DNA of 64,000 bases from Micromonospora sp. NBC_01813 (lineage in GTDB: Bacteria > Actinomycetota > Actinomycetes > Mycobacteriales > Micromonosporaceae), in assembly GCF_035917335.1 (NCBI RefSeq), contig NZ_CP109067.1, forward strand, positions 5,145,001 to 5,209,000, written 5' to 3'. The notes under the pieces are model-generated. The model was not told where the DNA came from and made no database searches. It was given only the letters and a program-made list of their open reading frames with translations. A program made the translations under genes and the position numbers. Shown here one piece after another: positions 2,758-46,523 of the stretch (positions within the stretch are counted from its first letter, which is position 1; each line of letters starts with the position of its first letter).

Positions 2758-5102
2758 CCGGGCGCGGAGCCGGCGCGGCCGGCCGGGTCGCCCAGGCGGT
2801 CCACGATCTCGGCTACGGGGCCCGCCTCGCCTTCGTCGGCGGCCGCGACGGCTGGTTGCGGACGCTGTTCACCGCGGTCGGTGTCGGCATCGGAGTCGCG
2901 ATGCTGCTGCTCGCCGCATCGGTGCCGGGCGCCCTCGCGGCCCGCGAGGATCGCGGCGCGGCCCGAGCCGGGGAGTACGCCGGCGACAGGACGGGCGACG
3001 CCCTGCTGATCGCCTACTCCGACACGATCTTCCGGAACCAGGGGGTCTGGGGCCGCACCATTGCGCCCGAAGGGCCGCAGGCACCGGTGCCGCCCGGGGT
3101 GGCGGCGCTGCCCGGCCCCGGCGAAGCGGTCGTGTCACCGGCGCTGGCCGAGCTGCTGGCCAGCCCGGACGGCGCGCTGCTGGCACCCAGGATCGGTGAG
3201 CGGATCGTCGGCCAGATCGGCCCGGACGGTCTGACCGGCCCCGCCGAGCTGGCCTTCTACCGGGGCAGCGACAGCCTGGACCCCGAGCGGACCACCCGGG
3301 TCGTGGCGTTCGGCGGCGGCGGACGCCCGGATGAACCGCTCGGTTCCACCCTCAGCCTGCTCGTCGTGGTCATCTTCGTGGTGCTGCTGCTGCCGATCGT
3401 CGTCTTCCTCGGCGCGGCGGTCCGGTTCGGCGGCGCCGCCCGGGACCGCCGGTTGGCTGCGCTGCGACTGGCCGGCGCCGATCACCGGATGATCGGCCGG
3501 TTCGCCGCCGGCGAGACACTCACCGGCGCGCTGCTCGGGCTGATCGTCGGTGCCGGGCTGTTCCTGATCGGCCGACAGGTCACCCCGCTGGTGCAGGTGG
3601 CGGGTCTCAGCGCCTTCGCCGCCGACGTGCGCCCGCCCGCCGTACTGGTCGCGTTGGCCGTCGTCGCCGCGCCGCTGGCCGCCGTCGCGGTCGGCCTGAT
3701 CGCGCTGCGCGGCGTCGTCGCCGAACCCCTCGGGGTGGTACGCCGGGCCACGCCCCCGCGCAGTCGGCCCTGGTGGCGGCTGGCGGTGCCGCTGGCCGGG
3801 CTGGCGCTGCTCTATCCGCTGCTGCGCGGCGGGATCTCCAGTTTCGACGTGCTGTCCCGCTACCAGGTCGCCGCCGGGGCGGTGCTGATGCTGATCGGGG
3901 TGGTGACGCTGCTGCCGTGGCTGATCGAGACGACCGTACGTCGGATGCGTGGTGGGCCGGTCGCCTGGCAGTTGGCGGTCCGCCGGCTCCAGGTCGACGG
4001 TGCCGGCAACGCCCGGTTGGTCTCCGGGGTCGCGGTCGCGGTGGCCGGCACGATAGCGCTGCAGGGCCTGTTCACCGGCATCGAGGACGACTTCACCCGG
4101 GACACCGGCGCGGACACCACCCGGGCCAGCCACTTCGCCAATTTCGGCTCGCCCGCTGGCGACACGGCAGTTGACGCGCTGCTGACCCAAATCACCGAGG
4201 TGCCCGGGGTCGAATCGGCCGGTGGAGTCCTCACCACCGGTGTCACCGTCGGGTCGGACGATGTCAAGGTGTGGGATCGGCTGTTCATCGCCAACTGCCC
4301 GGCACTCGCCGACCTGATCATCGCGACCGGCTGCGCGGACGGTGACGTGTTCCTCGTCGTGCCGCCGGAGGACGCCGTCCGTACCGGGACCGCACCACCG
4401 ACGCCGGTGGCGGCGACAGCCCGGCCCGGCGACCGGGTGCAGGTCGGTGAGGATGAGTACGGGTGGACGCTCCCGCCGACCACCCGCGCCGCCGAGCCTA
4501 GCGTCGACCCATGGGGGCGCCGGCAACACGGCATCTTCGCCACTACGGGCGCGATCGACACCGCCGCGCTCGGACCGATGGCGATCGAGGCGTACCTGAC
4601 CATCGACCCGACCGTGCCGGACGCGGTCGAACGGGTCCGCAACCTGGCGGCCATGGCAGGGGTGAACGGCTCAGTCGGTGCACTGACGACGAACGAGCAG
4701 GCCCGGCAGTACGTCAACATCCGGCGCGGGCTGACCGTCGGCATCGTCGTCACCCTGCTGCTGATCGGCGCCAGCCTGCTGGTCAACACGCTGGAGCAGC
4801 TGCGGGAGCGACGCCGGTTGCTGGCGATGCTGGCCGCCTTCGGCACCCCCCGGCGGGTGCTCGGCTGGGCGGTGCTCTGGCAGCAACTGGTGCCGGTGCT
4901 GATCGGCACGGTCCTGGCGGTCGCCGCCGGGCTCGGCCTCGGTGCGGCACTGCTCGGCATGGTCGGGCGCAGCCTGACGTTCGCCTGGTGGAGCGTGGCC
5001 GGCGCGAGTGCCCTCGGTGCCGGGGCGGCGATCGGAGTCACCGTCGCCAGCCTGCCGGTGCTGTGGCGGCTGATGCGCGCCGACGGGCTGCGTACCGAAT
5101 AA
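2754..5102 (+). CDS. FtsX-like ABC exporter permease
   Basis: A 782-residue permease. One membrane helix lies near residues 37-58. A large extracytoplasmic segment follows, then a group of three or four helices around 200-325. Two further helices flank a second extracytoplasmic region (about 420-640), and a final group of helices ends the protein (about 665-775). This is the two-FtsX-domain layout of actinobacterial exporters that work as a single fused permease. The conserved LAMLAAFGTPRRVLGWAV segment lies in the last FtsX domain. It is coupled to the ATPase gene by an ATGA overlap. Nothing in the sequence fixes the substrate. Confidence 0.9.
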   Translation: MTGRGAGAAGRVAQAVHDLGYGARLAFVGGRDGWLRTLFTAVGVGIGVAMLLLAASVPGALAAREDRGAARAGEYAGDRTGDALLIAYSDTIFRNQGVWGRTIAPEGPQAPVPPGVAALPGPGEAVVSPALAELLASPDGALLAPRIGERIVGQIGPDGLTGPAELAFYRGSDSLDPERTTRVVAFGGGGRPDEPLGSTLSLLVVVIFVVLLLPIVVFLGAAVRFGGAARDRRLAALRLAGADHRMIGRFAAGETLTGALLGLIVGAGLFLIGRQVTPLVQVAGLSAFAADVRPPAVLVALAVVAAPLAAVAVGLIALRGVVAEPLGVVRRATPPRSRPWWRLAVPLAGLALLYPLLRGGISSFDVLSRYQVAAGAVLMLIGVVTLLPWLIETTVRRMRGGPVAWQLAVRRLQVDGAGNARLVSGVAVAVAGTIALQGLFTGIEDDFTRDTGADTTRASHFANFGSPAGDTAVDALLTQITEVPGVESAGGVLTTGVTVGSDDVKVWDRLFIANCPALADLIIATGCADGDVFLVVPPEDAVRTGTAPPTPVAATARPGDRVQVGEDEYGWTLPPTTRAAEPSVDPWGRRQHGIFATTGAIDTAALGPMAIEAYLTIDPTVPDAVERVRNLAAMAGVNGSVGALTTNEQARQYVNIRRGLTVGIVVTLLLIGASLLVNTLEQLRERRRLLAMLAAFGTPRRVLGWAVLWQQLVPVLIGTVLAVAAGLGLGAALLGMVGRSLTFAWWSVAGASALGAGAAIGVTVASLPVLWRLMRADGLRTE

Positions 5103-5108
5103 GGAGTT

Positions 5109-6398
5109 TCAGACCCCGGACGGGAAGGTCTCCGGCTCCCGCACGTCGACCTGCGGGGTACGCAGCGGGCGTACCCCGCGGCTGCGGTCGAACCAGCAGA
5201 AGGCGTCGTAGCGCTCGCCGAGCACAGTCGGCACGTAGTTGCCGCGCCGTTCCCGCTGCGGCCGGTAGACGACGCCGATCGCCCGGTGGTCCAACTCGTC
5301 GGTGAGCAGGTGCGGTCCGTCGCCGTCGGTCGGGAAGACCAGCAACGCCTCGGCCGGGGCGGCGGCGGAGAGTTCCGCTTCCAGCGACCCCGGCCGAGCC
5401 GGCGGTACGGGCATCAGCCGCATCGGCGCACCCCACGACTCCCCGGCGACCACGGTGCCCTGGTTGGTGCCGAAGCCGACCAGCACCACCTGGTCCCGCC
5501 CGTACCGCTCCCGGGCCAGCTGTCCGATGTTGACCTCGCCCTGGTCGGTCATGTCGGTGGCCCGGGCGTCCCCGATGTGGGTGTTGTGCGCCCAGACGAC
5601 GGCCTTGGCGGTCGGCCCGTAGTGCTGCAGCAGCCGGTCCAGGGTGTCGTCCATGTGCCGGTCGCGGACGTTCCAGGAGAGCCGACCGCCGGAGACCAGG
5701 GCCCGGTAGTAGCGTTCCGCGCCGGCCACCACCTCGGCGTTCTGCCAGGCGTTGAAGCTGCCGCCCCCGTCGGCGGCGGCCTCGTGGCGCAGCCGGACCA
5801 GTAGCTCGATCACCTCGGCCTCGCAGCCGGCCGGCACCAGACGCAGCGCCGAGGCGTAGTCCTGCGGGTCCTCGCCGTACGGTTCGAAGCAGCGGTACGC
5901 GGCGAGCGCCGCCGGCACCTGGTCGGGTCGGTGTTCCCGCAGGTGGACGAGGATCTCCCGGAGTGACTCCCACAGTGAGTAGACGTCCAGGCCGTGGAAG
6001 CCGACCCGGGCGGACCCGCCGACCTGGTCGTTGTGGCGGCGCAGCCAGCGGCAGAAGTCGGCGACCTCGTCGTTGGCCCACATCCAGGTCGGCCAGCGTT
6101 CGAAGGTGGTCAGCGCCTCGCGCGGGTCCGACGGCGCGTCGGCGCGGCCACGGACGCTGCGGTCGACCCGGTCGCAGTCGGGCCAGTCCCCTTCGACGGC
6201 GACGAACGAGAAGCCGTGTTCGCTGATCAGCCGACGGGTGATCTCGGCCCGCCAGCCGTAGAACTCGTGGGTGCCGTGGCTGGCCTCGCCGAGCATCACC
6301 ACCCGCGCGTCGCCGACCCGGTCGATGAGCGGGTCGAGGTCGTCGGCACCGGTCAGCGGTTGTGCCAGCGCGGCGATGTCAGCGGCATGTCGGACCAC
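5109..6398 (-). CDS. Erythromycin esterase family protein
   Basis: A 429-residue protein of the erythromycin esterase / succinoglycan-biosynthesis family (EreA/EreB fold). The active-site segment LGEASHGTHEFYGWR (about residues 34-48) holds the glutamate and histidine used in this fold. FVAVEGDWPDC, VVWAHNTHIGDARAT and a C-terminal region also match the family. Most chromosomal members have no proven macrolide activity, so a resistance role should not be assumed. It ends six bases from the stop of the convergent permease gene and is probably transcribed alone. Confidence 0.85.
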   Translation of the reverse strand: MVRHAADIAALAQPLTGADDLDPLIDRVGDARVVMLGEASHGTHEFYGWRAEITRRLISEHGFSFVAVEGDWPDCDRVDRSVRGRADAPSDPREALTTFERWPTWMWANDEVADFCRWLRRHNDQVGGSARVGFHGLDVYSLWESLREILVHLREHRPDQVPAALAAYRCFEPYGEDPQDYASALRLVPAGCEAEVIELLVRLRHEAAADGGGSFNAWQNAEVVAGAERYYRALVSGGRLSWNVRDRHMDDTLDRLLQHYGPTAKAVVWAHNTHIGDARATDMTDQGEVNIGQLARERYGRDQVVLVGFGTNQGTVVAGESWGAPMRLMPVPPARPGSLEAELSAAAPAEALLVFPTDGDGPHLLTDELDHRAIGVVYRPQRERRGNYVPTVLGERYDAFCWFDRSRGVRPLRTPQVDVREPETFPSGV

Positions 6399-6467
6399 CG
6401 GGCGCGGGTACCCGGAAACCGGGGTCGCAAACGCCAGTGGTGGTGGCCACCCGCGCGGCGGTGGCGG

Positions 6468-8009
6468 TTACCGCGCGGTGGCGGACTCCGTGGCGAGCGC
6501 GGCGAGCCGGTGGGTGATCGGCCGGGTGGCCGGATAGAGCTCCCGGTACGCCTGGTAGTACTGGTCGTAGCGGGTCGTGGCGCCGGGGTTGGGGCGGACC
6601 ATGCCGGCCCGGCGGGTCCAGTCGTCCGCCGTGGTCGCCAACCCGACTCCGACCGCGGCCAGGTACGCGTCGCCGTAGCACGCTCCGATGGTCTGTTCCG
6701 GAATCAGCTGGGCGCAACTGGTGACGTCGGAGACGATCTGGGTCCACAGGCTCCGGGCGCCACCGCCGACGGCGATCACCCGGCGGGCAGGGTCGGCCAC
6801 CTCGGCCATCGTCGTCAGGTTGTGCCGGACTCCGTACGCGGTAGCTTCCAGCAGCGCCCGATAGAGGTGGCCGCGCCCATGGTCGATGGTCAACCCGGCG
6901 ATCACTCCGCGCGCCTGGTCGTCGAAGATCGGAGTCCGTTCGCCCGCGAAGTACGGCAGAACGAGGAGTCCGTCCGAGCCGGCCGGCACCGCTGCCGCCT
7001 GGGCGGTCAGCTCCGCGTAGTCCGGTCCGCCGGTCAGCTCCCGGAACCACTCGATCACCGCGCCGGACGTGGCCATGCCGGCGGCCAGGCAGTGGCTGCC
7101 CGGCAAGACGCCGGTGGTGGCCCACAGACCAGGATGGCGGGTGGGCCGGTCGACGGTCTGGACCAGGAACATCGTGGTGCCGTACATCAGCATCAGATCA
7201 CCAGGTCGGGTGGCACCGACGCTGGCCGCCTCGGCCCAGGCGTCCACGGTGCCGGCAGTCACCGGAGTTCCAGCCGCCAGCCCGGTCTGCGCCGCCGCAG
7301 CGTCGGTGATCCGGCCGACTACCTCGGTTGGCCAGTGCAGCCGGGGCAGTCGCAATCCGGGGGCGATCTCGTCGGCTAGGTCGGTGGCCCAACTGCCGCT
7401 GGTCAGATCGTAGAGCGGGTCGCATTGGCTGGCCGAGTGGTGGTCGAGCACGTACTCACCGGTGAGTCGGTGTACGAGTAGCGAGCTGGCCATCATGAAC
7501 CGCCGGGTCCGTTGCCAGACCTGCGGCTCGTGCCGGCGTAGCCACAGCAGCTTCGGACCGATCGCCTGGCTGGTCAGTGGGCTGCCGCCGCGTGCGATCA
7601 GGGCTTCGGCGCCGTACGCCTGGTTGAGTTCGGTGATCTCGGCGCTGGCCCGGGTGTCTACGCCGTACAGGATGGCTGGTCGCAACGGGTCGCCGGCGTC
7701 GGAGGTGGGCAGCAGGCAGGGGCCGATGCCGCTGACCGCCACCCCAGCGACCGCTCCGGCAGGCACCGCGTTGGCGGGCACCCCACCGGCGGGTGCGCCG
7801 GTGAGGAGCTCCCGGGTGACCGAGACGAACTCGTCCCACCAGACGCGGTCCGGATCGTGCTCCACCCAGCCTGGTCTGGGCCGGGACACCCCGTGTGGTC
7901 GGGTCGCGGTCCGCAGCACCGTCCCGTCCGGGGTGGTCAGCACGCCTTTGGTGGACGACGTGCCGATGTCCACCCCGAGCAGGTACGGGCCGGTGGGATC
8001 AGCGCCCAT
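6468..8009 (-). CDS. FGGY family carbohydrate kinase
   Basis: A 513-residue sugar kinase of the FGGY family, closest by eye to xylulokinase-type members. The first phosphate loop is LGVDIGTSSTKGVL near residue 12, the catalytic aspartate sits in GTVDAWAEA, and the second nucleotide segment is VIAVGGGARSLWTQIVSD. The start is ATG 8007-8009, giving a normal N-terminus; the coding region overlaps the upstream PPC gene by 11 bases. It is the last gene of the minus-strand operon that begins at 14261. It should phosphorylate the sugar or polyol brought in by that operon's transporter. The exact sugar is not predictable. Confidence 0.9.
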   Translation of the reverse strand: MGADPTGPYLLGVDIGTSSTKGVLTTPDGTVLRTATRPHGVSRPRPGWVEHDPDRVWWDEFVSVTRELLTGAPAGGVPANAVPAGAVAGVAVSGIGPCLLPTSDAGDPLRPAILYGVDTRASAEITELNQAYGAEALIARGGSPLTSQAIGPKLLWLRRHEPQVWQRTRRFMMASSLLVHRLTGEYVLDHHSASQCDPLYDLTSGSWATDLADEIAPGLRLPRLHWPTEVVGRITDAAAAQTGLAAGTPVTAGTVDAWAEAASVGATRPGDLMLMYGTTMFLVQTVDRPTRHPGLWATTGVLPGSHCLAAGMATSGAVIEWFRELTGGPDYAELTAQAAAVPAGSDGLLVLPYFAGERTPIFDDQARGVIAGLTIDHGRGHLYRALLEATAYGVRHNLTTMAEVADPARRVIAVGGGARSLWTQIVSDVTSCAQLIPEQTIGACYGDAYLAAVGVGLATTADDWTRRAGMVRPNPGATTRYDQYYQAYRELYPATRPITHRLAALATESATAR

Positions 8010-8599: not shown

Positions 8600-9439
8600 C
8601 TATTTGACGCTGCCCATGGTCATTCCGGTGACGATGTGGCGCTGCGCGAAGAGGGTCAGGATCAGGACCGGGATCATGATGATCGTGGCGTAGGCCATCA
8701 TCGGCCCCCAGTCCAGCGACGCCTCGTGCACGAAGTTGAACACGGCGACCGGCAGCGTCCGGGTGTCCCCGTCAGACAGAATCAGCGCCATCTTGAAGTC
8801 GTTCCAGGAGAAGATGAAAGCCAGGATGCCGGCCGTGAGCATTCCGGGTCGAGTCAATGGCAGGGCGATCCGCCAGAACGTCTCCAGCCGGCCACAGCCG
8901 TCGACCTCGGCGGCGTCATAGATCTCGGCGGGCAGACCGGCAAAGAAGTTGACCATGATGAACACGGTCAGCGGGAACGTGATGATCACGTGGGAGAGAA
9001 TGAGCGCCGGGTAGCTGCCGACCATCCGCAACGCGGTGAACGCGACAAAGAACGGCACCAGGTACGCCACCCCGGGCAGCAGCCGCGCGGTGAGCAGCGA
9101 CAGCGACAACTTGCTCTGCCGGTAGCGGGCGATGCTGTACGCCGCCGGCAGACCGATCATCAGGCCAAACAGGCTCGACGCGGTAGCGACCAGCAGGCTG
9201 TTCATCATGTACCGGGTAAACGGAGTCTGCTCCAACGCGCTGCGGTAGTTGTCCAGTGTCGGCGAGAAGTTCAGCCACTGCGGCGGAATCGTATAGATGT
9301 CCACCTGCTGCTTGAACGACGAAGTAACCATCCAGAAGAACACGAACGCCGCCGGCGCCAACGCAACGATCAACGTCAGCCAGAATGCGATGCGACGCAG
9401 GGTCCGCCCAGCGCCGCGCGGTACGGTGGATGCGCTCAT
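8600..9439 (-). CDS. Carbohydrate ABC transporter permease (MalG type)
   Basis: A binding-protein-dependent permease of about 279 residues with six predicted membrane helices. The EAA loop reads DAAEVDGCGRLETFWRIALP, as in MalG-like sugar permeases, and contacts the ATPase. The chosen ATG (9437-9439) lies just after the stop of the partner permease gene; an upstream ATG at 9475 would overlap that gene by 29 bases. With the permease at 9447-10400 it forms the channel of a CUT1-type importer. No ATPase gene is in the operon, so a shared ATPase such as MsiK, known for actinobacterial sugar importers, probably serves it (inference). Confidence 0.92.
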   Translation of the reverse strand: MSASTVPRGAGRTLRRIAFWLTLIVALAPAAFVFFWMVTSSFKQQVDIYTIPPQWLNFSPTLDNYRSALEQTPFTRYMMNSLLVATASSLFGLMIGLPAAYSIARYRQSKLSLSLLTARLLPGVAYLVPFFVAFTALRMVGSYPALILSHVIITFPLTVFIMVNFFAGLPAEIYDAAEVDGCGRLETFWRIALPLTRPGMLTAGILAFIFSWNDFKMALILSDGDTRTLPVAVFNFVHEASLDWGPMMAYATIIMIPVLILTLFAQRHIVTGMTMGSVK

Positions 9440-9446
9440 GGCCGGC

Positions 9447-10400
9447 TCACTTTTCCTCGGTACGGGCGCGGACATGGGTAAAGACGATCGCCACGCCGAA
9501 GACCAGCAAGGTCAGAAAGACCAGCAGCGCCGAGCCGTAGCCGAAGTGCAGGTATGACAAGCCCTGCTTGAACGCGTACAAATTGAGGGTTTCCGATGCC
9601 TGACCCGGTCCACCATCGGTGATCACCTTGATGATGTCGAAGGTCTTGATCGCGTCGATCAGCCGGAACAGGACCGCGACCAGGAGCACCGGCCGCAACA
9701 GCGGCAACGTGACGCTGACGAAGGTCCGGATCGGCCCGGCACCGTCGACCTTGGCCGCCTCGAACGGCTCCTGCGGCAGGGCAGCCAGTCCCGCCAGCAC
9801 GATCAGCATCACCAGCGGGGTCCACATCCAGGTGTCCACGATCGCCAGCGCCGGGATCACCAGATTGGCGTCGGAGGTCCACAGCAGGGTCGGTCCACCG
9901 ATGCTCTGCACCAGGTAGTTGAATACCCCGATCGTCGGGTCGTACATCATCTTCCAGACCAGCGCGACCGCGGCCGGGGTGGCGATCATCGGGAACATGA
10001 AGAACGTGCGGGCGATCCCCCGCCCCGGGAACCGGCGATGGAACAGCAGCGCCGCTCCGACCCCGATCACGACCTGCAGCCCGACGGAGAGAATCACGAA
10101 GTACGCCGTACGCCACAGACTGCCCCAGAACTGCCCGGTGGTGAGCGCCCGGGTGAAGTTGTCGAGACCGATCCACTGCGGTGGACGCAGACCACCGGAC
10201 CACTGATGAAAGCTCAGGTAGATCGTGTAGACGATCGGGAAGGCGAGCATCGCCACCACGACGATGACCGCTGGCGCCGGCAGGATGTACCGGTCGTACC
10301 GGTCCAGCCAGTCGAGCAGTGGGCGCCGCCGGGGCGGCATCGAGCCGGACCCGGCGGGCCGGGCGGGCGGAGCCGGTGGTGATTCGGTGAGCTGGGACAT
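9447..10400 (-). CDS. Carbohydrate ABC transporter permease (MalF type)
   Basis: A 317-residue permease with a proline-rich cytoplasmic N-terminus and six predicted helices. The EAA loop FEAAKVDGAGPIRTFVSVTLP is a standard match to MalF-like sugar permeases. ATG 10398-10400 is preceded by GAGAGGA at suitable spacing. It lies 89 bases downstream of the solute-binding protein gene, and the gap holds a strong hairpin (10424-10478) that may lower its expression relative to the binding protein. It partners the permease at 8600-9439. Confidence 0.93.
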   Translation of the reverse strand: MSQLTESPPAPPARPAGSGSMPPRRRPLLDWLDRYDRYILPAPAVIVVVAMLAFPIVYTIYLSFHQWSGGLRPPQWIGLDNFTRALTTGQFWGSLWRTAYFVILSVGLQVVIGVGAALLFHRRFPGRGIARTFFMFPMIATPAAVALVWKMMYDPTIGVFNYLVQSIGGPTLLWTSDANLVIPALAIVDTWMWTPLVMLIVLAGLAALPQEPFEAAKVDGAGPIRTFVSVTLPLLRPVLLVAVLFRLIDAIKTFDIIKVITDGGPGQASETLNLYAFKQGLSYLHFGYGSALLVFLTLLVFGVAIVFTHVRARTEEK

Positions 10401-10423
10401 CACAAGGTCCTCTCCCACGCAGG

Positions 10424-10478
10424 GCCGGTGACCGGGCGGAATGTTGGGACGGGGACGCCACCCCACCCGGTCACCGGC
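10424..10478. promoter_or_regulatory. Intercistronic hairpin after the binding-protein gene
   Basis: The arms GCCGGTGACCGGG (10424-10436) and CCCGGTCACCGGC (10466-10478) are perfect 13-base complements around a 29-base loop. There is no U-run, so full termination is unlikely. In many sugar operons such a hairpin protects the binding-protein message and reduces the downstream permease messages; that role is inferred here from position. Confidence 0.65.
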
Positions 10479-10489
10479 GCGCGAGTCAG

Positions 10490-11839
10490 CTATTGCATCG
10501 CGTCCAGGAGTCCCTGGAGCTGCTCGTTCTGCTGGTCGGCGACCTGTTGTAGCTGGTCACCGGTCTGCCCTTCCAGGGCCCGGTTGGCTACCAGACCGGC
10601 GATCTCCCGTGCCTCGACCCCCGGGGTCACCGGTGGGTTCATCTGCGCCCGGGCGTTCTCGGTGCTGTCCAACACGACCTGGCTGAACTCCGGAGTCGGG
10701 TCGCCGGCGGCGAACTCCGGTGACTCCCACGCCGACGCTCGCGGGCTGGGCCAGCCGGTCAGCTTCAGGTCCAGGTTCATCTGCTTGCTGGTGGCCCACT
10801 GGATGAAGTACCAGGAGGCGTCGCGCTGCTCGGAGAACGGGTTGATCGCGTATCCCCAGCCGCCGATGAACGGCGCAGGGTCACAGTCGGCGCGCGGCAC
10901 CGTGGTGTAGCCGACGTTGCCGGCGACCCGCGAACGGCTCGGGTCCTCCAGCTCGCTGACGAACAGGTTGACGTCCAGGAAGGCGAAGACGTTGCCCTGG
11001 GCGAACTGTTGGGACGGCACCGGCCAGTCGAATCCGGCGATGCCGGGTGGACCGTAGTTGTTGCCCAGCTGCCCGTACACCTCGTACGCCTCGACCGCCT
11101 CCGGGGAGTTGATCACGGCCTGGCCGCCGTCGTCGACCCACTGGCCGCAGTGCGCGTAAAGGAAGGACGAGAAGGGCGTGGTCGTCTGGTACGGGATGCC
11201 ACGCAGCGCGAAGCCGTAGAGCCGGTTGTCCGGGTCGTGTACGGCCTCAGCAGCGGCGGCCCACTCCTCGAACGTCGTCGGCACGGCCAAGCCAGCCTGT
11301 TCCAGCAGGTCCTTGCGGTAGTAGACCAGATCGGTCTGCATCTCCCAGAGCACCGTGATGGTCTGGTCGTCGACCTTCATCGCCTCCCGCACACCGGTCC
11401 GGAAGTCCTCGAAGTCGTACTCCGGGTCGGTGACTCCGGGATTGTCGATGTACGGACCGAGGTCGGTGTACCAGCCGTTGCTGGCGAACTGGAGCCCGTC
11501 GACCTCCGGAAAGGTGGCCATTACGTCGAAGTCACTGGCTCGGGAGGTGAGCCGGACCGGCAGGTTCTGCCGGTAGCTGGTCACGTCGGCGGACTCGATG
11601 TTGACGGTGATGCCGGTCAAGTCGGTGAACTCGTCGAGGTTGTCTCGCAGCGCCTGCACCTGGCCGGTGTCGGCAATGTAGACATTGAGGGAGGTACCGT
11701 CGTACCGCTTCCAGTCGAAGGTGTCACCCTCGAACTCGGGTCCTTCGCCGCCGGCGGTCGAACCACAGGCGGAGGCGGCGAGGACGGCAGTCAGGCCTAT
11801 CGCGAGCGCCCGGACTGCCGGGCGAATAGTGGGCAACAT
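10490..11839 (-). CDS. Extracellular solute-binding lipoprotein (sugar type)
   Basis: A 449-residue lipoprotein. A short signal peptide ends in the lipobox LAASAC at about residues 20-25, so the mature protein is anchored outside the membrane. The body resembles family 1 solute-binding proteins: SLNVYIADTG near the N-terminus, YYRKDLLEQAGL in the hinge region, and a tryptophan-rich ligand area near WGYAINPFS. AGGAGA precedes the ATG at 11837-11839. It supplies ligand to the two permeases encoded just downstream. Its long separate ligand domain fits an oligosaccharide, glycoside or sugar derivative, but the sequence does not say which. Confidence 0.93.
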   Translation of the reverse strand: MLPTIRPAVRALAIGLTAVLAASACGSTAGGEGPEFEGDTFDWKRYDGTSLNVYIADTGQVQALRDNLDEFTDLTGITVNIESADVTSYRQNLPVRLTSRASDFDVMATFPEVDGLQFASNGWYTDLGPYIDNPGVTDPEYDFEDFRTGVREAMKVDDQTITVLWEMQTDLVYYRKDLLEQAGLAVPTTFEEWAAAAEAVHDPDNRLYGFALRGIPYQTTTPFSSFLYAHCGQWVDDGGQAVINSPEAVEAYEVYGQLGNNYGPPGIAGFDWPVPSQQFAQGNVFAFLDVNLFVSELEDPSRSRVAGNVGYTTVPRADCDPAPFIGGWGYAINPFSEQRDASWYFIQWATSKQMNLDLKLTGWPSPRASAWESPEFAAGDPTPEFSQVVLDSTENARAQMNPPVTPGVEAREIAGLVANRALEGQTGDQLQQVADQQNEQLQGLLDAMQ

Positions 11840-11851
11840 ATCCGATATCTC

Positions 11852-12694
11852 CTAACGCGGGAATGTTCTCGCGGGAGCGCCGTCGTCGCGTTCCTGCGCG
11901 ATGACGGTGCAGGGCACCTCGCCGACCCCTTGGACGTTCAGGGGGGCGATGGTGAGCCGGACCCGGTCGGCGCGAAGGCCGCCGCATCCGACCAGTCCGA
12001 CCACGGTCCAGATCTGCGCGGTGAGGGCCAGCGTGGCTGCCCAGTCGCGCCGGACGCGGTCGCGCCGGTAGTGCTCCAGATATGTCCGAGCGGCGTCGGA
12101 CGGGAAGGGCGGACGCAGCCACGGAACCAGATCGGTCCATTCGGATCGGGCCTGCGACCCGGCCGGCGAGTCGAGGTAGGCGCAGTCCGTCAACAGCAGG
12201 TCGCTGCCGGTTTCGGCGAGCAGGCCGACGAGGGTTTCGGCGGACGACTCGGTCAGGTGTGGGGTTGCCAGGTAGTAGCTCGGATCGTCGCGCCAGCGGT
12301 CGGTGTCGCCCCAGCCGGTGACCAGCAGAATCGCGTCACCGCGGAGCGGGGCGGCCGCGGCGAAGGCGGCGCGCAGTTCGTCCGGCTCGATTGCCCCGGC
12401 TGAACCAGCCGAGCTGGCTGGACCGGGGTCGACCCGGACGACGGTGGCGTCGCGGTTGACGAGTCGTTCCGGCGCGATCTGGTCGGTGGTCGCACCGTCC
12501 GGCGCACCAAGGCCCGGGCCGAGCAGACGGGTGGCAGACCCACTGCCCATCGTGATGTGGAACAGGTTCGCGCCGTTGACCGTGAGCGTGACGATGTCTT
12601 CGGTGCGGTACGGCGCTTCCCACGGCAGCAGGGCGCCGGCCGGCGTGTCGGTGGTGATCGGTCTGGTCAGGTTGATCGTGGTGGAACGGCTCAC
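11852..12694 (-). CDS. Cyclase-family (PF04199-like) protein, altered metal motif
   Basis: A 280-residue protein with the general pattern of the cyclase/kynurenine-formamidase family, including a core ILLVTGWGDTDRW segment and a C-terminal PCTVIAQE strand. The usual metal-binding motif HxGTHxDxPxH is not present; the aligned stretch is GSATRLLGPGLG, with the key histidines replaced. The GTG start (12692-12694) has GGAGG four bases before it and overlaps the stop of the next cyclase-like gene (GTGA). It lies 12 bases from the binding-protein gene. It may be a ligand-binding or differently catalytic relative acting on the imported compound. Confidence 0.8.
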   Translation of the reverse strand: MSRSTTINLTRPITTDTPAGALLPWEAPYRTEDIVTLTVNGANLFHITMGSGSATRLLGPGLGAPDGATTDQIAPERLVNRDATVVRVDPGPASSAGSAGAIEPDELRAAFAAAAPLRGDAILLVTGWGDTDRWRDDPSYYLATPHLTESSAETLVGLLAETGSDLLLTDCAYLDSPAGSQARSEWTDLVPWLRPPFPSDAARTYLEHYRRDRVRRDWAATLALTAQIWTVVGLVGCGGLRADRVRLTIAPLNVQGVGEVPCTVIAQERDDGAPARTFPR

Positions 12695-13506
12695 CGGGCC
12701 TCCTCCGGGTTGTTGTCGGTCGCCCACACCGTGCAGGTGGCACCGTGCGCGCCGGCCAGAAACAGCGGCAGTACGGTGACCGTGATCCGCTTGCCGCGCA
12801 GCGCTCCGCAATTGGCCAGCGCGGCCACTGGGGAGGTGGCCGCGTGCAGCACCACCGACGAGGCCCAGTCCGGGGCGCCTCCGCCGGCTCCCCGCTCCGG
12901 CGTGTAGTGCCGCAGGTAGATCCGGGCCTGCTGGGAAGGGAACGGTGGCCGGTCCCACGGCTCGCGGGAGGACCACTCGGGGAACATGTATGCCTCGCCG
13001 AGGTTGCCGATGTAAGCGCAGTCGGTGAGCATCAGGTCGCTGTTCTTCTCCTTCAGGAGGGCGGCAAGGCGTTCCGCGCCGGCCAGGGAGAAGTGCGGCG
13101 AGGTGCTGGCGTACGCGTCGCCGAGGGTCCGGTAGCGCTCGTCGTCACCCCAGCCGGTACGCAGCAGCACCGCGTCGCCGTCGTGGTAGTCGGGGTCGTC
13201 GGCGAGCCGGTCGATGTCGGCGGGAACGATCTCCGCACCGGCTTCCTTCGGTACGTCGAACACGACGGTGGGCCGGTTGACCAACGGGCCGTAGTCGAGT
13301 TCGTCGACTCGGGGCGCGTTGTCGTCGTAGCAGGCACCGAGCATCAGCCGGGTGCCGGCTTCGCTGTGGAAGCTCATCTGATGCGCGCTCACACCGTGCC
13401 GCTGGTGAGTCAGCGTCGGCGTCAGTTGGAACGGTGAGTCCCAGGCCCAGACGTTGCCGACCGGCATGAACGGATACAGCGGCAGGGTCAGGTTGACGAC
13501 TGTCAT
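12691..13506 (-). CDS. Cyclase-family (PF04199-like) protein, altered metal motif
   Basis: A 271-residue paralogue of the neighbouring gene. Family features are VLLRTGWGDDERY, PHFSLAGAERLAALL and MLTDCAYIGN. The position expected to carry HxGTHxDxPxH reads HSEAGTRLMLGACYDD, so GT is kept but the following histidine is arginine and the later acid and histidine ligands are missing. The ATG (13504-13506) overlaps the GntR stop (ATGA). The two paralogues may form a heteromer. A conventional metal-dependent amidohydrolase or lactonase activity is doubtful on this reading. Confidence 0.8.
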   Translation of the reverse strand: MTVVNLTLPLYPFMPVGNVWAWDSPFQLTPTLTHQRHGVSAHQMSFHSEAGTRLMLGACYDDNAPRVDELDYGPLVNRPTVVFDVPKEAGAEIVPADIDRLADDPDYHDGDAVLLRTGWGDDERYRTLGDAYASTSPHFSLAGAERLAALLKEKNSDLMLTDCAYIGNLGEAYMFPEWSSREPWDRPPFPSQQARIYLRHYTPERGAGGGAPDWASSVVLHAATSPVAALANCGALRGKRITVTVLPLFLAGAHGATCTVWATDNNPEEAR

Positions 13507-16613: not shown

Positions 16614-17729
16614 ATGAGCAATCTCGCACAACTGTTGAAGGAGAGCTGGGTCCTCGTCGAGGAGCAACGCGACGAGGTGGCGGGCTACTTCTACGCCCGG
16701 CTGTTCTACGACGATCCGGCCCTGCGTCAGCTCTTCCCGGTGCACATGGACACCCAGCGACGTTGCCTGGTCGAGGCGATCGTCACCGCCGTCGGCTCGA
16801 TCGACGACCCGGAGCAGTTCGACGACTACCTGCAGGGGCTGGGCCGGGCCCACCGCAAGTTCCAGGTGCAACCTGCACACTATGCATCGTTCGGGGCGGC
16901 CCTGCTGGAAGCCCTGCGTACCGTCGCGGCCGACCAGTGGACCATCGAGTACGAGCAGGCCTGGAGCGACGCCCTCGAACTGCTCACCGGCAACCTGATC
17001 CTGGGAGCGCAGAACGACCCGAATCCCGCCTTCTGGCACGCCGAGGTGCTCAGCCACGAACGACGTGGCACCGACATCGCGGTGTTGACCTGCCGGCCGC
17101 TGCAGCATCCGCTGGAATACCAGGCTGGGCAGTACGTGAGTGTCGAAGCACCCCGGTACCAGCCACGGTTGTGGCGGACCTACTCGATCGCCAACGCGCC
17201 CCGGACGGACAACGTCCTGGAGTTCCACGTCCGCGCCGCCGGAGCCGGCTGGGTGTCCAGCGCCCTGGTACGCCGGGTGCGCCCCGGCGATCTGCTACGG
17301 GTCGCCGCGCCGATGGGGACCATGGTGTTGGACCGCGACTCGCCCCGGGACATCGTCTGCCTGGCCGGCGGCGTCGGGCTCGCCCCCGTCAAGGCGCTCG
17401 TCGACGAACTGACCCGCTTCAACCGCAGCCGCTGGGTACACGTCTATTTCGGCGGGCGTACCCGCGACGACCTGTACGACCTGGCCGAGTTGAACCGGCT
17501 GGCCGCCGCGTACCCGTGGCTGAACGTTGTCCCGTGCTGCGCCGACGACCCGACCTGGTCGGGTGAGCACGGCGAGGTGTCGCAGGTGCTCGCCCGCTAC
17601 GGCCCGTGGCACGAGCACGACTTCTTCGTCTCCGGCTCGGCCAGCATGGTCCGGGCCAGCCTGCGTACGCTGGCCGAGCTCGACATCCCGGCGGACCGCA
17701 TCCGGTACGACAGCTTCGGCGAGATGTAG
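16614..17729 (+). CDS. Flavohemoprotein-like globin-reductase
   Basis: A 371-residue protein with a globin domain (1 to about 135) fused to an FAD/NAD(P)H reductase. The proximal haem histidine is H80 in LGRAHRKF; Tyr27 and Gln48 match the distal pocket of bacterial flavohemoglobins. The FAD motif RTYSIA is near residue 188, and GGVGLAPVKAL is the nucleotide-binding loop. Flavohemoproteins oxidise nitric oxide to nitrate in the cytoplasm using O2 and NAD(P)H. GGGGAAGGG precedes ATG 16614. The reductase ends in a FGEM tail rather than the canonical F-x-P-x end, so electron donor preference could differ. No NsrR-type operator was recognised. Confidence 0.88.
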   Translation: MSNLAQLLKESWVLVEEQRDEVAGYFYARLFYDDPALRQLFPVHMDTQRRCLVEAIVTAVGSIDDPEQFDDYLQGLGRAHRKFQVQPAHYASFGAALLEALRTVAADQWTIEYEQAWSDALELLTGNLILGAQNDPNPAFWHAEVLSHERRGTDIAVLTCRPLQHPLEYQAGQYVSVEAPRYQPRLWRTYSIANAPRTDNVLEFHVRAAGAGWVSSALVRRVRPGDLLRVAAPMGTMVLDRDSPRDIVCLAGGVGLAPVKALVDELTRFNRSRWVHVYFGGRTRDDLYDLAELNRLAAAYPWLNVVPCCADDPTWSGEHGEVSQVLARYGPWHEHDFFVSGSASMVRASLRTLAELDIPADRIRYDSFGEM

Positions 17730-17742
17730 GGCCGACTCGGGG

Positions 17743-19287
17743 TCAGTATGCCCAGGGTTGTCCGCTGCCCCGGTACTCCTCGACCGGCACCAGGCTCGAC
17801 CCGGGCGGCATCCGGTCCACGTACAGCCGGCCTTCCAGATGGTCGATCTCGTGCGCGACCAGCCGGGCCATCGCCCGGTCGAACGTCGTGATCACCCGGC
17901 TGCCGTCCAACCGGGCGTGCTCGACGTCGATCCGCAACGGACGCGGCACCAGTCCGCGCACATCGAAGTAGGACAGGCAGCCTTCGTACTGCTCGTCGGT
18001 GTCCAGCGCCGAGTCGACCACCCGGGGGTTGAACAGGATCATCGGCTCGGCACCGGGCTCCGGTGCGCGGACCACCGTGGCGGCCCACGGCAGCCCGATC
18101 TGCGGCGCGGCGAGTCCCACGCCCTTGCTGAACGGGTGCAGTTCGTCGAGCCGGGCGAGCATGGCCCGCAGCCGGGCGGCGGTGTCCAGGGCGACCGACT
18201 CGTCGGCCGGCAACTCGAACGGCTGCGCGGGCTGCCGGAGCATCTCGGCACCCCGCTGGACGATCCCGATCGCCCGCATCCGTTCGCTTGTCCGGCTCGG
18301 CGGCCGGGTCTCGGTGGCGTCGGGCGCACCCGCCGAGCTGGTCGGGCCGGTCGGTCCGGCCCGGAACCGCCACTCCAGCCGGTAACGGGCGTTGAGCAGC
18401 GGGGCTTCGGTCGACCATTCGAAGATCGTCCGGCCGTCGGCCTGGAGGCGGCGGAGCGGGGTACGCAGCGGCGCGTCCTCCGCCGACAGCGAGGTCTCGA
18501 CGCCCCACAGCTGTGGATCGAACGCGTCCGGGAAATCCAGCCGTACGGTCAGCTGCCGGGTGGGTAGCCGGACGGCGCGTTGGAACCAGTGGCCCCACTT
18601 TTCCTGCCCGACCCGGTACGTGTACTCGATCGTGGCCCGCTGGCCGGGGTACAGCGGAAAGCGCCCCTCGGAGTTCTCGAAGAGCACCCAGACCTCTTTG
18701 AACGCGTCCCGGTCGTGCTTCTTGCGCCACTGCATCGGCTCACGGTGCTGGGTCGACCCGCAGAACGCCTGCAGGTCGAGCTCCGCGAAGGTGAGGGGGT
18801 GGTCGCGGTGGTGCCGGTTCGACCGGTCCGGATCGTCGGGGTAGCGGTCGACGGCGATCCGGACCAGGTAGCGGGTCACCGGTTCGTTTCCGGCGTTGTA
18901 CAGCGCCCGGCGGATGGTGCAGTGGTAGTAGCCGTCCTGGTAGGTCAGGGCGGCGACTTCCTGCTCGACGATGAGTCCGGTGCCGGGCGGCATCCACTGT
19001 TCGGGGACCGGTGGGTCCCGTAGCGGTGCGGGGGTGCGGCTGTGCCGAAGCTCGTCGTACTCCTGGTAGCGCTGCCAGATGGCGCCGCCGGCACCGAGCA
19101 CCGCCTCGGCTCGGCGGGCGAAGTCCTCGGTCGGGCGGTGCCGGCGGCCTTCGACGTGGCTGATGTAGGACGGGTCGAAACCCATCCGGGCCGCCAGCTG
19201 CTTCTTGGTCATCGCCCGGTCGATGCGCCACTGGGCAAGCTCCGCCGCGAAGACGTCTGCGGCACGGTCGATGGACGAGCTGGTCAT
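17743..19287 (-). CDS. XRE HTH domain fused to peptide deformylase
   Basis: A 514-residue three-part protein. Residues 17-68 are an XRE helix-turn-helix (TKKQLAARMGFDPSYISHVE). Residues 95-315 form a beta-rich middle domain I do not recognise, rich in Tyr, Trp and Arg. Residues 350-505 are a peptide deformylase with all three active-site motifs: GVGLAAPQ (389-396), EGCLS (435-439, metal Cys437) and HEIDH (479-483, metal histidines and catalytic Glu480). A typical deformylase is only about 170-200 residues. The enzyme half looks active, so it could deformylate N-formyl-Met proteins or sense formylated peptides while bound to DNA. The gene is probably monocistronic. Confidence 0.85.
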   Translation of the reverse strand: MTSSSIDRAADVFAAELAQWRIDRAMTKKQLAARMGFDPSYISHVEGRRHRPTEDFARRAEAVLGAGGAIWQRYQEYDELRHSRTPAPLRDPPVPEQWMPPGTGLIVEQEVAALTYQDGYYHCTIRRALYNAGNEPVTRYLVRIAVDRYPDDPDRSNRHHRDHPLTFAELDLQAFCGSTQHREPMQWRKKHDRDAFKEVWVLFENSEGRFPLYPGQRATIEYTYRVGQEKWGHWFQRAVRLPTRQLTVRLDFPDAFDPQLWGVETSLSAEDAPLRTPLRRLQADGRTIFEWSTEAPLLNARYRLEWRFRAGPTGPTSSAGAPDATETRPPSRTSERMRAIGIVQRGAEMLRQPAQPFELPADESVALDTAARLRAMLARLDELHPFSKGVGLAAPQIGLPWAATVVRAPEPGAEPMILFNPRVVDSALDTDEQYEGCLSYFDVRGLVPRPLRIDVEHARLDGSRVITTFDRAMARLVAHEIDHLEGRLYVDRMPPGSSLVPVEEYRGSGQPWAY

Positions 19288-19565
19288 CGCATGGCGTCCC
19301 CTCAGGCCGGATCCTCAGTCTGCTTTCCGACTCGTACGCCCGGTCAAGAGTGGCGCGTTGCCGACAAAAATCTTGACAAGGCAGCGGCAGCAACTATGTG
19401 CAACCTGGGGGAGACACTCAGTCGCGACGCCCACCAGTACCAACTATGCGTGATCACCGCCGACACCGTGCGCTGCCACGACCGGTGCCGTGTCGTCAAA
19501 GTGAAGTCGAGTCACTACCGACGGCCACGGAGTGTCACATCTTTCAGCCGGCATTTCTGCGGAAC

Positions 19566-19584
19566 TCTGGTTAGGCTAGCCTTA
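19566..19584. promoter_or_regulatory. IdeR/DtxR-type iron box
   Basis: The 19-mer here matches the DtxR/IdeR consensus at 15 of 19 positions by my alignment, including an uninterrupted GGTTAGGCTA core. It overlaps a TAGGCT promoter-like hexamer (19572-19577) and stands 45 bases before the first start codon of the downstream operon. Iron-loaded IdeR would repress from this position. The downstream gene is an iron-reductase-like protein, which supports the call. Confidence 0.72.
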
Positions 19585-19628: not shown

Positions 19629-19727
19629 GTGACAGCGATGAGGCAGGGGCAGCGCAGCCGGGTCGACCACCGGCATGCCGCCTTCACCGCAATCACCTCA
19701 TCTCCGTACGAAAGTCACGTATCGTGA
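19629..19727 (+). CDS. Short coupled upstream reading frame (32 aa)
   Basis: A 32-codon frame begins with GTG 19629, with GGAAGG eight bases before it; an in-frame ATG follows at 19638. Its stop codon overlaps the GTG start of the FhuF-like gene as GTGA (19724-19727). The predicted peptide is basic (RQGQRSRVDHRHAA) and matches no family I know. The tight overlap suggests that translation of this frame delivers ribosomes to the next start. It could be a leader peptide or only the real N-terminal region misread by frame; no codon evidence settles this. Confidence 0.4.
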   Translation: MTAMRQGQRSRVDHRHAAFTAITSSPYESHVS

Positions 19728-20515
19728 CTGCCGTCATCGATCCCCGCGCCCGCGCCGCCGCCCCGCTCGCGCCGATCAGCGCCACCTTGCGCGTTGCCTT
19801 CGGCACCGACGACCTGCCCGGCCTGCACCCTGGCCTGCTGGTCGACAACGAGATCGGCTGGATCCCGGCCACCAGCCTGATCGACGGCGACCACCTGCCC
19901 CGGCTGCTCGACTCCGCCGCCCAGCGTTGGCAGGCGAAGCGCCACGCGGCCGCCGCCCTCGCCTGGAAGGCATACAGCTACTGGGTGGCGCTGCCGGTCG
20001 CACTCGGCTGGGCGTCCGCCCGACGGGTGCCGCTGCTGCGCGCCGACGACGTACTGCTGCGGATGGACGACACCGGCCCGCTGGTCGATGTCGGGCTACG
20101 CATCGGGACCCGGATCGCCGTGCTGCCGGGCGACCCGCTCGCCGTCGCCGGGCTGCCCGAGGTGCTGGTCGTGCCGGACGAGGACGCGATGCTGCGGGCG
20201 CTGCGCGAATCGCTGCTCGATCAACACATGATCCCACTGCTGGACAAGATCCACAGCAGGTCCAAGCTCGGCCCGCGTACGCTGCTCGGGTCGCTCTCCT
20301 CCGGTATCGCCTACGCGGTGCTGCAGGCGGCCGACACCCTGCCCGGGTCGTCGGCCGAGACGATCGGCACTCTGCTCGACGCGTTGGACATCGGAGACCT
20401 GATCGAGTTGGTGCCGGGCCCGGACGGGGCGCTCACCGTGCAGCGCCGGACCTGCTGCCTGGCGTTCACGCTGCCCGACCCGAAGGTCTGCCCCGGCTGC
20501 TGCATCCGCCCCTGA
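19724..20515 (+). CDS. FhuF-like ferric/siderophore-iron reductase
   Basis: A 263-residue protein ending in RTCCLAFTLPDPKVCPGCC. The CC-x10-CxxC arrangement is the [2Fe-2S] ligand pattern of FhuF-family siderophore-iron reductases. The rest is a poorly conserved helical domain, as is usual in the family. It would reduce ferric iron released from an imported siderophore in the cytoplasm. The start at GTG 19724 overlaps the stop of the short frame before it. An IdeR-type box at 19566-19584 implies iron repression. No siderophore synthesis or uptake genes are in the window. Confidence 0.82.
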   Translation: MTAVIDPRARAAAPLAPISATLRVAFGTDDLPGLHPGLLVDNEIGWIPATSLIDGDHLPRLLDSAAQRWQAKRHAAAALAWKAYSYWVALPVALGWASARRVPLLRADDVLLRMDDTGPLVDVGLRIGTRIAVLPGDPLAVAGLPEVLVVPDEDAMLRALRESLLDQHMIPLLDKIHSRSKLGPRTLLGSLSSGIAYAVLQAADTLPGSSAETIGTLLDALDIGDLIELVPGPDGALTVQRRTCCLAFTLPDPKVCPGCCIRP

Positions 20516-44857: not shown

Positions 44858-45634
44858 ATGACCACATCGGTAGCGAATCCGATCGCCCCGACGGACCCGC
44901 CACTGGTCACCGGGTACGCGGCACTGACACCGTTGCTGCGTCGGGTGACCGGCGACGAGAAGCACGAACCGAGCTCCAACTCGACACTGGACGTGCTCTG
45001 GGTCCTCTATGACCAGATTCTGCGGGTCAGCCCGCAGACCGTCGACGCCGCCGACCGGGACCGGTTCCTGCTGTCCAAGGGACACGGGCCGGCGGCCTTC
45101 TACGCCGTACTCGCCGCCAAGGGGTTCTTCCCGCTCAGCTGGCTCGACGACCTGGCCGGGCCGGACAGCCCGCTCGGGCATCACCCGGACCGGCTGCTGG
45201 TCCCCGGGGTGGAGATCGGCTCCGGATCACTCGGGCATGGGCTCGGCCTCGGCGTCGGCATGCTGCTCGGGCTGCGCGCCCAAGGGCTGACGCCCAGCTC
45301 CGGAAGTCCGGCGGGTGCCCGGGTGTACGTCCTGGTCGGCGACGCCGAACTCGACGAAGGCGCCAACCACGAGGCGATCGCGTACGCCGGCAGCCGGCCA
45401 CTGGCCGATCTGACCGTGGTGGTGGTCGACAACGACTCGGCCACCCACGGCTGGCCGGGTGGGCTGGCCAGCCGGTTCACCGTCAACGGCTGGACCGCAG
45501 CGACCGTCGACGGGCGTGACCACGACGCGTTGGCGACCGCGCTGACCGGGCACGACGGCATCCGCCCACACGTGGTGGTCGCCAAGGTGCCGGCCAAGTA
45601 CGCCGCACTCGGATCGGCGGATCGCGATGCGTGA
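44858..45634 (+). CDS. Transketolase, N-terminal (TPP-binding) subunit
   Basis: A 258-residue protein equal to the first domain of transketolase. LLSKGHGPAAFYAVLAAKGF and GSLGHGLGLGVGMLLGL bind thiamine diphosphate, and GDAELDEGANHEAIAYAG with VVVDN at the end is the metal/TPP motif (here GDA instead of GDG). It needs the pyrimidine domain encoded by the next gene, which overlaps its end by eight bases. Split transketolases move two-carbon ketol units and occur both in the pentose phosphate path and in biosynthetic clusters. There is no clue to an unusual substrate. Confidence 0.92.
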   Translation: MTTSVANPIAPTDPPLVTGYAALTPLLRRVTGDEKHEPSSNSTLDVLWVLYDQILRVSPQTVDAADRDRFLLSKGHGPAAFYAVLAAKGFFPLSWLDDLAGPDSPLGHHPDRLLVPGVEIGSGSLGHGLGLGVGMLLGLRAQGLTPSSGSPAGARVYVLVGDAELDEGANHEAIAYAGSRPLADLTVVVVDNDSATHGWPGGLASRFTVNGWTAATVDGRDHDALATALTGHDGIRPHVVVAKVPAKYAALGSADRDA

Positions 45635-46523
45635 GGCGTTCGCCCGGGCCACCACCGGGCTGCTGGACACCGATCCGCGTACCGCGTTGGTGCTCGCCGA
45701 CATCTCGTTCGAACTGTTCGCCCCGGCCGCCCGCCGGCACCCGGACCGGGTGCTCAACGTCGGCATCCGGGAGCAGCTGATGATCGGCGTGGCCGGTGGG
45801 CTGGCGCTGACCGGGCTGCGCCCGATCGCCCACTCGTACGCCCCGTTCCTCATCGACCGCGCGTACGAGCAGATCAAGCTGGACCTCGACCACCAGGGCG
45901 TCGGCGCGGTGCTGGTCAGCATCGGCGGCTCGTACGACGCGGCGGCCGAGGGCCGCACCCACATGTCGCCCGGTGACGTCGCGCTGCTCGACACCGTCGG
46001 GTCGTGGACGGTGCGGGTCCCCCGGCACGCTGGCGAGGTAGGGCCGTTGCTGCGGGCGGCGGCGGCCAGCGACGATCCGGTCTACCTGCGGCTGGGTGCC
46101 CGCGCCAACAGCGGCGAGCACGGTGACGGAGTGTCGGGTCGGCTGGTGACGGTGCGTCGGGGCAGCGGGGGCGCCCCGGTCGTCGTCGCGGTCGGCCCGA
46201 TGCTCGACCCGGTGCTGGCGGCGGTCGCCGGGCTGGACGTGACGGTGGCGTACACGAACACGCCACGGCCGTTGGACGTGACCGGTCTGCGGATGCTCAC
46301 CGATCAGGTGACGCCGGTGGTGGTGCTGGTCGAGCCGTACCTGGCCGGCACGTCCAGTCATCTGGTCGGCGAGGCGCTGGCGGACCGGCCGTACCGTTTA
46401 CTGGCGTTGGGGGTCGGCCGGGAGGAACTGCACCGGTACGGCAGGCCGGCGGATCACGATCGCTGGCACGGGCTGGATCCGGCCGGCCTACGCCGCTCGA
46501 TCGCCCGTTTCCTCACCCAGTGA
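45627..46523 (+). CDS. Transketolase, C-terminal subunit
   Basis: A 298-residue protein covering the pyrimidine-binding and C-terminal domains of transketolase. VLNVGIREQLMIGVAGGLAL contains the catalytic glutamate that activates the thiamine ring; IDRAYEQIKLDLDHQGVGAV and DPVYLRLGARANSG follow the family pattern. Eight-base overlap with the N-terminal subunit gene ensures equal production. The pair should form the active heterotetramer in the cytoplasm. Confidence 0.92.
   Translation: MREAFARATTGLLDTDPRTALVLADISFELFAPAARRHPDRVLNVGIREQLMIGVAGGLALTGLRPIAHSYAPFLIDRAYEQIKLDLDHQGVGAVLVSIGGSYDAAAEGRTHMSPGDVALLDTVGSWTVRVPRHAGEVGPLLRAAAASDDPVYLRLGARANSGEHGDGVSGRLVTVRRGSGGAPVVVAVGPMLDPVLAAVAGLDVTVAYTNTPRPLDVTGLRMLTDQVTPVVVLVEPYLAGTSSHLVGEALADRPYRLLALGVGREELHRYGRPADHDRWHGLDPAGLRRSIARFLTQ

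Follow-up and report, generated by a model that had tools for sequence, protein, structure and literature searches.

What does a peptide deformylase, ordinarily a housekeeping enzyme, do when it shares one protein with a DNA-binding domain? The question is raised by a gene on the minus strand (17743–19287) of a 64,000-nucleotide stretch, hereafter the window, of the 7.63-Mb single-contig genome of the soil bacterium Micromonospora sp. NBC_01813. Its product joins an XRE-type helix-turn-helix (HTH), a middle domain (M) and a peptide deformylase (PDF), an arrangement kept in relatives. The reading of this XRE-M-PDF protein as a one-component regulator, in which the PDF senses formyl-peptides, PDF inhibitors or metal state, has in our estimate an even chance of being right.

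Domain architecture of the fusion protein

The frame runs from ATG to stop without a break over 514 codons, and translation, Pfam and AlphaFold2 bear out the preliminary description of an uninterrupted XRE, beta-rich and deformylase protein with intact motifs; the strand, which that description left unstated, is the minus strand. The XRE helix-turn-helix (HTH_31, residues 13–70; 19078–19251, minus; E 2e-11) exceeds the curated Pfam cut-offs (44.5 vs 27 bits; HTH_3, 23.8 vs 23 bits), as does the deformylase (PF01327, Pep_deformylase, residues 342–495; 17803–18264, minus; E 8e-32, 110.4 vs 22.8 bits), in which GVGLAAPQ, EGCLS and HEIDH are all present. The NCBIfam deformylase cut-offs are not reached (TIGR00079, 91.5/103.95 bits; NF001159, 101.9/125 bits). 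The window protein has no Pfam match between HTH_31 and Pep_deformylase, the region that holds M (residues 100–312; 18352–18990, minus), supported by AlphaFold2 and Foldseek against the PDB, and a variable linker (residues 313–337; 18277–18351, minus) with pLDDT below 50 at residues 313–329 of the full-length model. The HTH, M and PDF are each under purifying selection, with median dN/dS over 21 pairs of seven same-genus genes of 0.05 for the HTH (residues 1–82), 0.14 for M and 0.15 for the PDF, against 0.59 for the linker (residues 313–335). The full-length model has a pTM of 0.46, from which mutual domain contacts are not readable.

Modelled alone, M is beta-rich (pLDDT 90, pTM 0.87) and resembles in fold the beta domains at the N-terminus of M1 aminopeptidases as well as 3kd4, a structure that we take to be of DUF3857 type (E 3e-7 to 1.5e-5 among the 50 Foldseek matches shown; ERAP1, E 3e-7; 3kd4, E 3e-6 with a TM-score by query of 0.56). 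TM-scores by query are near 0.5 (0.44–0.56) at about 5–11% identity, no peptidase domain is attached to M, and oligosaccharyltransferase and inter-alpha-inhibitor chains match about equally well. DUF3857 is weakly matched in 7 of 25 M-bearing members, the window's own M not among them, and a PDB sequence search with an M profile gave three matches (best E 0.29). Outside the fusion, M occurs in PDF-less XRE-M proteins, after N-terminal stretches that Pfam leaves unmatched (L135–L137) and behind NTPase-like regions, including an NTPase/TPR-like one in L134 (nSTAND3, E 8.5e-4; TPR_12, E 0.0085; both weak and below cut-off). We infer that M is a ligand-binding or coupling module. The L134 locus encodes two large NTPase/TPR-like proteins with M (4444–7200 and 9477–11828), one of them with a C-terminal inositol-monophosphatase domain, and a genome of the window's genus encodes a 504-aa protein with a Pfam-unmatched N-terminus, M and a PDF on a long branch (L137, 6674–8188).

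Active site and deformylase clade

The fusion PDF retains the metal ligands C437, H479 and H483 together with E480 and R444, the equivalent of E. coli Arg97. In an alignment of 32 proteins (the window protein and 31 of 63 named loci), both motif-I glycines, the Gln, Glu-Gly-Cys-x-Ser, Arg444, Arg449 and His-Glu-x-Asp-His are invariant. The pattern extends to 46 clade-type PDFs, 31 of them from a tree clade and a further 15 recruited from plasmids by profile match, all of which carry Gln50, Glu88, Gly89, Cys90, Ser92, Arg97, Arg102, His132, Glu133, Asp135 and His136 in E. coli numbering (Arg97 and Glu88 as in PMC12690207); the motif-I glycines are found in 44/46 and 45/46 and Leu91 in 44/46. 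Further marks of the clade (window numbers) are Phe386 (45/46), Phe440 (44/46), Phe441 (45/46), Asp442 (46/46) and Arg444, giving the signature EGCLSFFDxR for fusion-type PDFs. In a tree of 59 PDF domains built with a quick method, 20 fused PDFs and 10 split or nearby ones group with L038 on a single branch (SH-aLRT 94, not starred; 98 with L055 added), most members of which are fused to, or near, an XRE-M protein. The genome also encodes four stand-alone PDFs (open frames of 187–208 aa), which fall outside this clade in the same quick tree.

Position 97 distinguishes the clade from most of the other deformylases compared. Arg is found there in all 46 clade-type PDFs as compared with 5 of 28 other actinobacterial PDFs, in which the catalytic residues are equally kept, and the four stand-alone PDFs of the genome have His, Tyr, Tyr and Thr. 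According to a published study, from which the updated definitions of motifs I–III were also taken, Arg97 hydrogen-bonds actinonin, its replacement by Tyr raises the actinonin MIC in Vibrio cholerae, and Tyr97 is the tolerance signature of accessory PDFs (PMC12690207). This signature is absent from the fusion clade, and the retained Arg97 is an argument for ligand binding and against resistance.

These observations bear on a rival explanation, that the fusion is a spare or protective enzyme carrying out ordinary or inhibitor-tolerant deformylation, with the XRE half only autoregulating the gene when deformylation fails. Every catalytic residue is retained, and accessory PDFs, some on mobile elements, are reported to confer actinonin tolerance in V. 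cholerae (PMC12690207). However, a spare enzyme would add to four PDFs already in the genome, a protective one lacks the Tyr that the genome's own L002 and L003 carry, and the fusion brings in a 213-residue M domain and faces unrelated operons. We regard this explanation as unlikely. The preliminary description had suggested both self-resistance, which is weakened because Arg97 is retained, and a back-up enzyme, which is possible but redundant beside the other four.

Occurrence, split genes and neighbourhoods

The three-domain architecture recurs elsewhere, in the family and on plasmids of Streptomyces, Nocardia and Nonomuraea. Counted by hand, matches reaching from the HTH through the PDF within a single frame occur in 91 of 150 Micromonosporaceae genomes (three cross a stop), 85 of them close (58–100% identity) and 6 distant (48–50%). 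One match (G083) starts only at residue 30 rather than at the full HTH, and three of the close matches (G106, G121 and G095) cross one TGA; in L144, one of these that was read, the gene ends after 499 aa. Further family genomes have the protein in two pieces. Among 296 genomes sampled phylum-wide, two family members have the protein and one other full-length protein (G195, 51%) is among the matches listed. A scan of named genomes gave 63 loci, mostly from Micromonosporaceae and several broken or partial; the nearest named relatives all belong to this family (Phytohabitans, Micromonospora, Salinispora and others), with scattered loci in Pseudonocardia, Actinomadura, Streptomyces, Actinoalloteichus, Kutzneria, Nocardia, Nonomuraea and one Nitriliruptorales MAG. 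At E ≤ 1e-10, 45 of 72,556 plasmid records match (Streptomyces 32, Nocardia 3, Nonomuraea 1, Proteobacteria nine), 13 of them over at least 80% of the length, either as two adjacent genes (H1, H2) or as a single gene annotated 'peptide deformylase' (H3–H13). Within the part of the open-licence PubMed Central literature covered, no description of an HTH-deformylase fusion was found in titles, abstracts or passages.

Several relatives keep the two halves as separate genes. The XRE-M and PDF genes overlap by 4 bp in L111, L114 and L138 (gene caller) and in H1/L149 (annotation), a gap of about 330 bp separates XRE-M from the PDF that follows it in L140, the two lie on opposite strands with a few kilobases between them in L128 and L129, and Phytohabitans suffuscus (L103; L132/G057) has the protein in two frames. 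Two-gene homologues had been named beforehand as a possible sign of a sequencing artefact; they do exist, but we read them as splits of a linked pair and not as a sign of error in the window. A frameshift or misassembly at 17743–19287 is ruled out by one-frame relatives at 58–88% identity, the conserved residues and the dN/dS values, and a one-off joining of chance neighbours is made unlikely by the single PDF clade and the separate XRE-M and PDF gene pairs. In four loci (L130, L131, L139, L141) XRE-M has no PDF in the 12 kb covered at each, and the PDF is therefore dispensable there. Conversely, clade-type PDFs occur without M shown beside them (L038, L162, L163), and some stand alone on plasmids (H21, H25), and M was not found in the DNA examined, some of it short, around L038, L121, L124, L125, L126 and L127. 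A HAD-type hydrolase family, recognized by its L128 member, recurs near XRE-M or PDF genes in four loci (L128 10767–11318, L129 5164–5658, L138 6250–6825, L140 4532–5095).

At the window locus, the fusion gene is divergent from a FhuF-like gene (19724–20515, plus; start uncertain, with a longer frame from 19595) whose product ends in CC-x10-C-x2-C and matches Pfam FhuF (E 3e-4, 21.6 vs 25.2 bits) and FhuF_C (E 0.015, 15.6 vs 20.5 bits) below the curated cut-offs. On the other side lies a convergent flavohaemoprotein-like gene (16614–17729, plus) with globin, FAD and NAD domains by Pfam; in 46 of 57 loci it directly adjoins the fusion on its 3' side. Of 64 loci, the window's among them, 45 have the FhuF-like gene next to the fusion in divergent orientation; the rest comprise eight with another divergent gene (in L118 a truncated copy), three with a co-directional gene, three at a contig edge and five in which no fusion was called. 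The neighbour is thus divergent in 53 of the 56 loci where it is readable. An obligate pairing of the two genes is ruled out, as the FhuF-like protein is matched in 143 of 150 family genomes, including fusion-less ones. Elsewhere in the window, a gene pair at 44858–46523, which we take to encode the two halves, N- and C-terminal, of a divided transketolase, is found less than 8 kb from the fusion gene in some other Micromonosporaceae, and two tandem minus-strand genes at 11852–13506 encode similar proteins of 280 and 271 aa, presumably of cyclase/kynurenine-formamidase type, beside an apparent sugar ABC transporter set (8600–11839).

The intergenic region contains two sites. A candidate operator/promoter block, GTCAAG-N5-TGTCGGCAA (19358–19377, minus), lies 71–90 bp upstream of the start codon, and its GTCAAG-N5/6-TGTCG form is present at 10/11 or better in 44 of 44 Micromonosporaceae intergenic regions (0.3% in shuffles). 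Between the divergent genes is an iron-box-like palindrome (19566–19584), defined by a consensus that we take to be of the IdeR/DmdR type and matched at no fewer than 13 of 19 positions in all 44 usable regions (1.7% in shuffles). The 44 regions are related and the shuffle figures consequently overstate significance; both this block and the TCAC pairs described below were picked after inspection. The exact block has a single match in the whole genome, from which no wider regulon is readable, and the idea that it marks one was dropped.

The neighbours and the palindrome invite an explanation in which iron supply or nitrosative damage is sensed at the Fe2+ site of the PDF, with the XRE half acting in response on the FhuF-like gene and, perhaps, on the flavohaemoprotein. 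The iron-box-like site accompanies the FhuF-like neighbour in every region compared, the flavohaemoprotein usually follows directly, and in Salmonella nitric oxide is reported to inactivate Fe-PDF by zinc mismetallation and S-nitrosylation (PMC7683392), a sensitivity that leaves room for a nitric oxide or metal role. Against this, the PDF-less relatives retain the FhuF-like neighbour (4/4) and the flavohaemoprotein (3/4), and the flavohaemoprotein is convergent, not divergent. The iron box is, we presume, better explained by an IdeR/DmdR-type regulator. No iron box is found upstream of 21 mobile or plasmid homologues (best 12/19), and their operons are not obviously iron-related. Support for the iron idea comes only from the Micromonosporaceae locus, and we consider it improbable.

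The mobile homologues face a different set of genes, on most of the plasmids opened a small biosynthetic operon. Of 16 plasmid records opened among the 45, 11 contain the whole fusion or an intact pair, divergent from the next gene in 10. The facing gene is a glycosyltransferase (H1, H3), a D-alanine–D-alanine ligase operon (H6), 6-carboxytetrahydropterin synthase/QueE/FolE (H7, H10, H11), a methyltransferase with uracil-DNA-glycosylase-like genes (H8, H9), a radical SAM gene with a creatininase-family gene (H13) or, in H12, a hypothetical gene accompanied by one for a MazF-type toxin; H4 has an IS5 gene between fusion and neighbour. Operon types repeat among the plasmids and there are accordingly fewer independent cases than records. 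The remaining records include a fusion interrupted by an IS3 element with a divergent dTDP-glucose dehydratase operon (H14), a short XRE gene with a PDF (H16), and PDF genes for which the annotation shows no intact XRE-M (H19, H21, H25). In Actinomadura harenae (L106, 5217–7726), an ATP-grasp RiPP (graspetide-type) operon lies opposite the XRE-M-PDF gene, with TIGR04187 and TIGR04186 over cut-off and TIGR04188 at 368/380; a fragmentary ATP-grasp RiPP operon is also seen near the Kutzneria fusion (L120). The L105 fusion lies beside RepSA-like (438/700 bits), recombinase-like and weakly Tra-like genes, all below NCBIfam cut-offs, in surroundings that look like those of an integrative element; the Rep-like family recurs at L107 and the Tra-like family at L110.

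Of 20 mobile homologues, 15 have two TCAC motifs spaced by 4 or 11 bp in the 70 bp upstream of the start (9 of 20 for 11 bp alone), and five lack such pairs. The corresponding shuffles give means of 0.59 (maximum 4) and 0.17 (maximum 2), and other genes of the same loci have none (0/186). The 20 include near copies (L111/L114/L149/L157 and L152/L156/L158/L159/L160); L106, whose start is unsure and which has no TCAC upstream, was left out of the count.

A role in which M is an NTPase-type conflict-protein module and the PDF an effector triggered by infection or translation stress is very improbable: M does sit behind the NTPase/TPR-like and Pfam-unmatched regions of L134–L137, and mobile-type genes lie near the fusion in L105, L107 and L110, but PADLOC matches are confined to the HTH region, on which ground defence-system membership was set aside, the chromosomal neighbours are conserved in Micromonosporaceae, and no phage record matches M.

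A predicted regulator and its known counterparts

Divergent geometry, upstream repeats and target operons exchanged on the same input module make a regulator facing its target the simplest account. The regulator that we favour most likely attaches to intergenic repeats through its XRE domain and would control its own promoter and the divergent neighbour, FhuF-like here and biosynthetic operons in plasmid relatives. M and the PDF would form the signal-input half, in which the PDF, whose metal site and catalytic Glu are intact together with the substrate-contacting Arg97, would bind and probably hydrolyse an N-formyl-methionyl ligand. Occupancy of the PDF by substrate or a natural PDF inhibitor, or loss of Fe2+, would then alter DNA binding. 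DNA binding, regulation and its target, ligand and catalysis are here all predictions. The suggestion of a deformylase-based sensor in the preliminary description fits the divergent layout, the operator-like repeats and the XRE-M-tied PDF clade; the PDF-less XRE-M relatives fit it less well. More specifically, and only tentatively, a working, inhibitor-sensitive (Arg97) PDF might serve a transcription factor as sensor of formyl-peptides or natural PDF inhibitors, travelling with mobile biosynthetic operons in hosts whose stand-alone PDFs differ at position 97.

If this is so, an essential translation enzyme has been turned into a signal receptor, linking transcription to the maturation of protein N-termini or to stress from PDF inhibitors, and EGCLSFFDxR beside XRE-M would be a marker for small biosynthetic operons in actinobacteria. 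Plasmid genes of actinobacteria annotated 'peptide deformylase' (H3–H13) may be regulators, which affects counts of PDFs per genome.

The fusion PDF shares motifs I–III, the metal ligands, the catalytic Glu and Arg97 with the peptide deformylases (PF01327), from which it differs in being joined to XRE and M and in forming its own clade. ImmR-ImmA, DdrO-IrrE and CapH-CapP are pairs of an XRE regulator and a metalloprotease. The fusion resembles them in tying an XRE DNA-binding protein to an HExxH-type metallohydrolase, and CapH is weakly matched by its HTH only; here, however, the hydrolase is a deformylase, it is fused, and there is no sign of regulator cleavage. The older form of motif III, QHEXDHLXG, has a Gln before HEXDH that the fusion PDF lacks (PMC12690207). 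A near parallel is the Exiguobacterium def-fmt fusion, in which a PDF is likewise part of a larger protein, and the same study describes accessory PDFs carried by mobile elements (Lamberioux et al. 2025, PMC12690207); neither "helix-turn-helix" nor "Micromonospora" appears in its main text. There the partner is a formyltransferase and the tolerance signature of the accessory PDFs is Tyr97, whereas the window's PDF is joined to a DNA-binding domain and retains Arg97.
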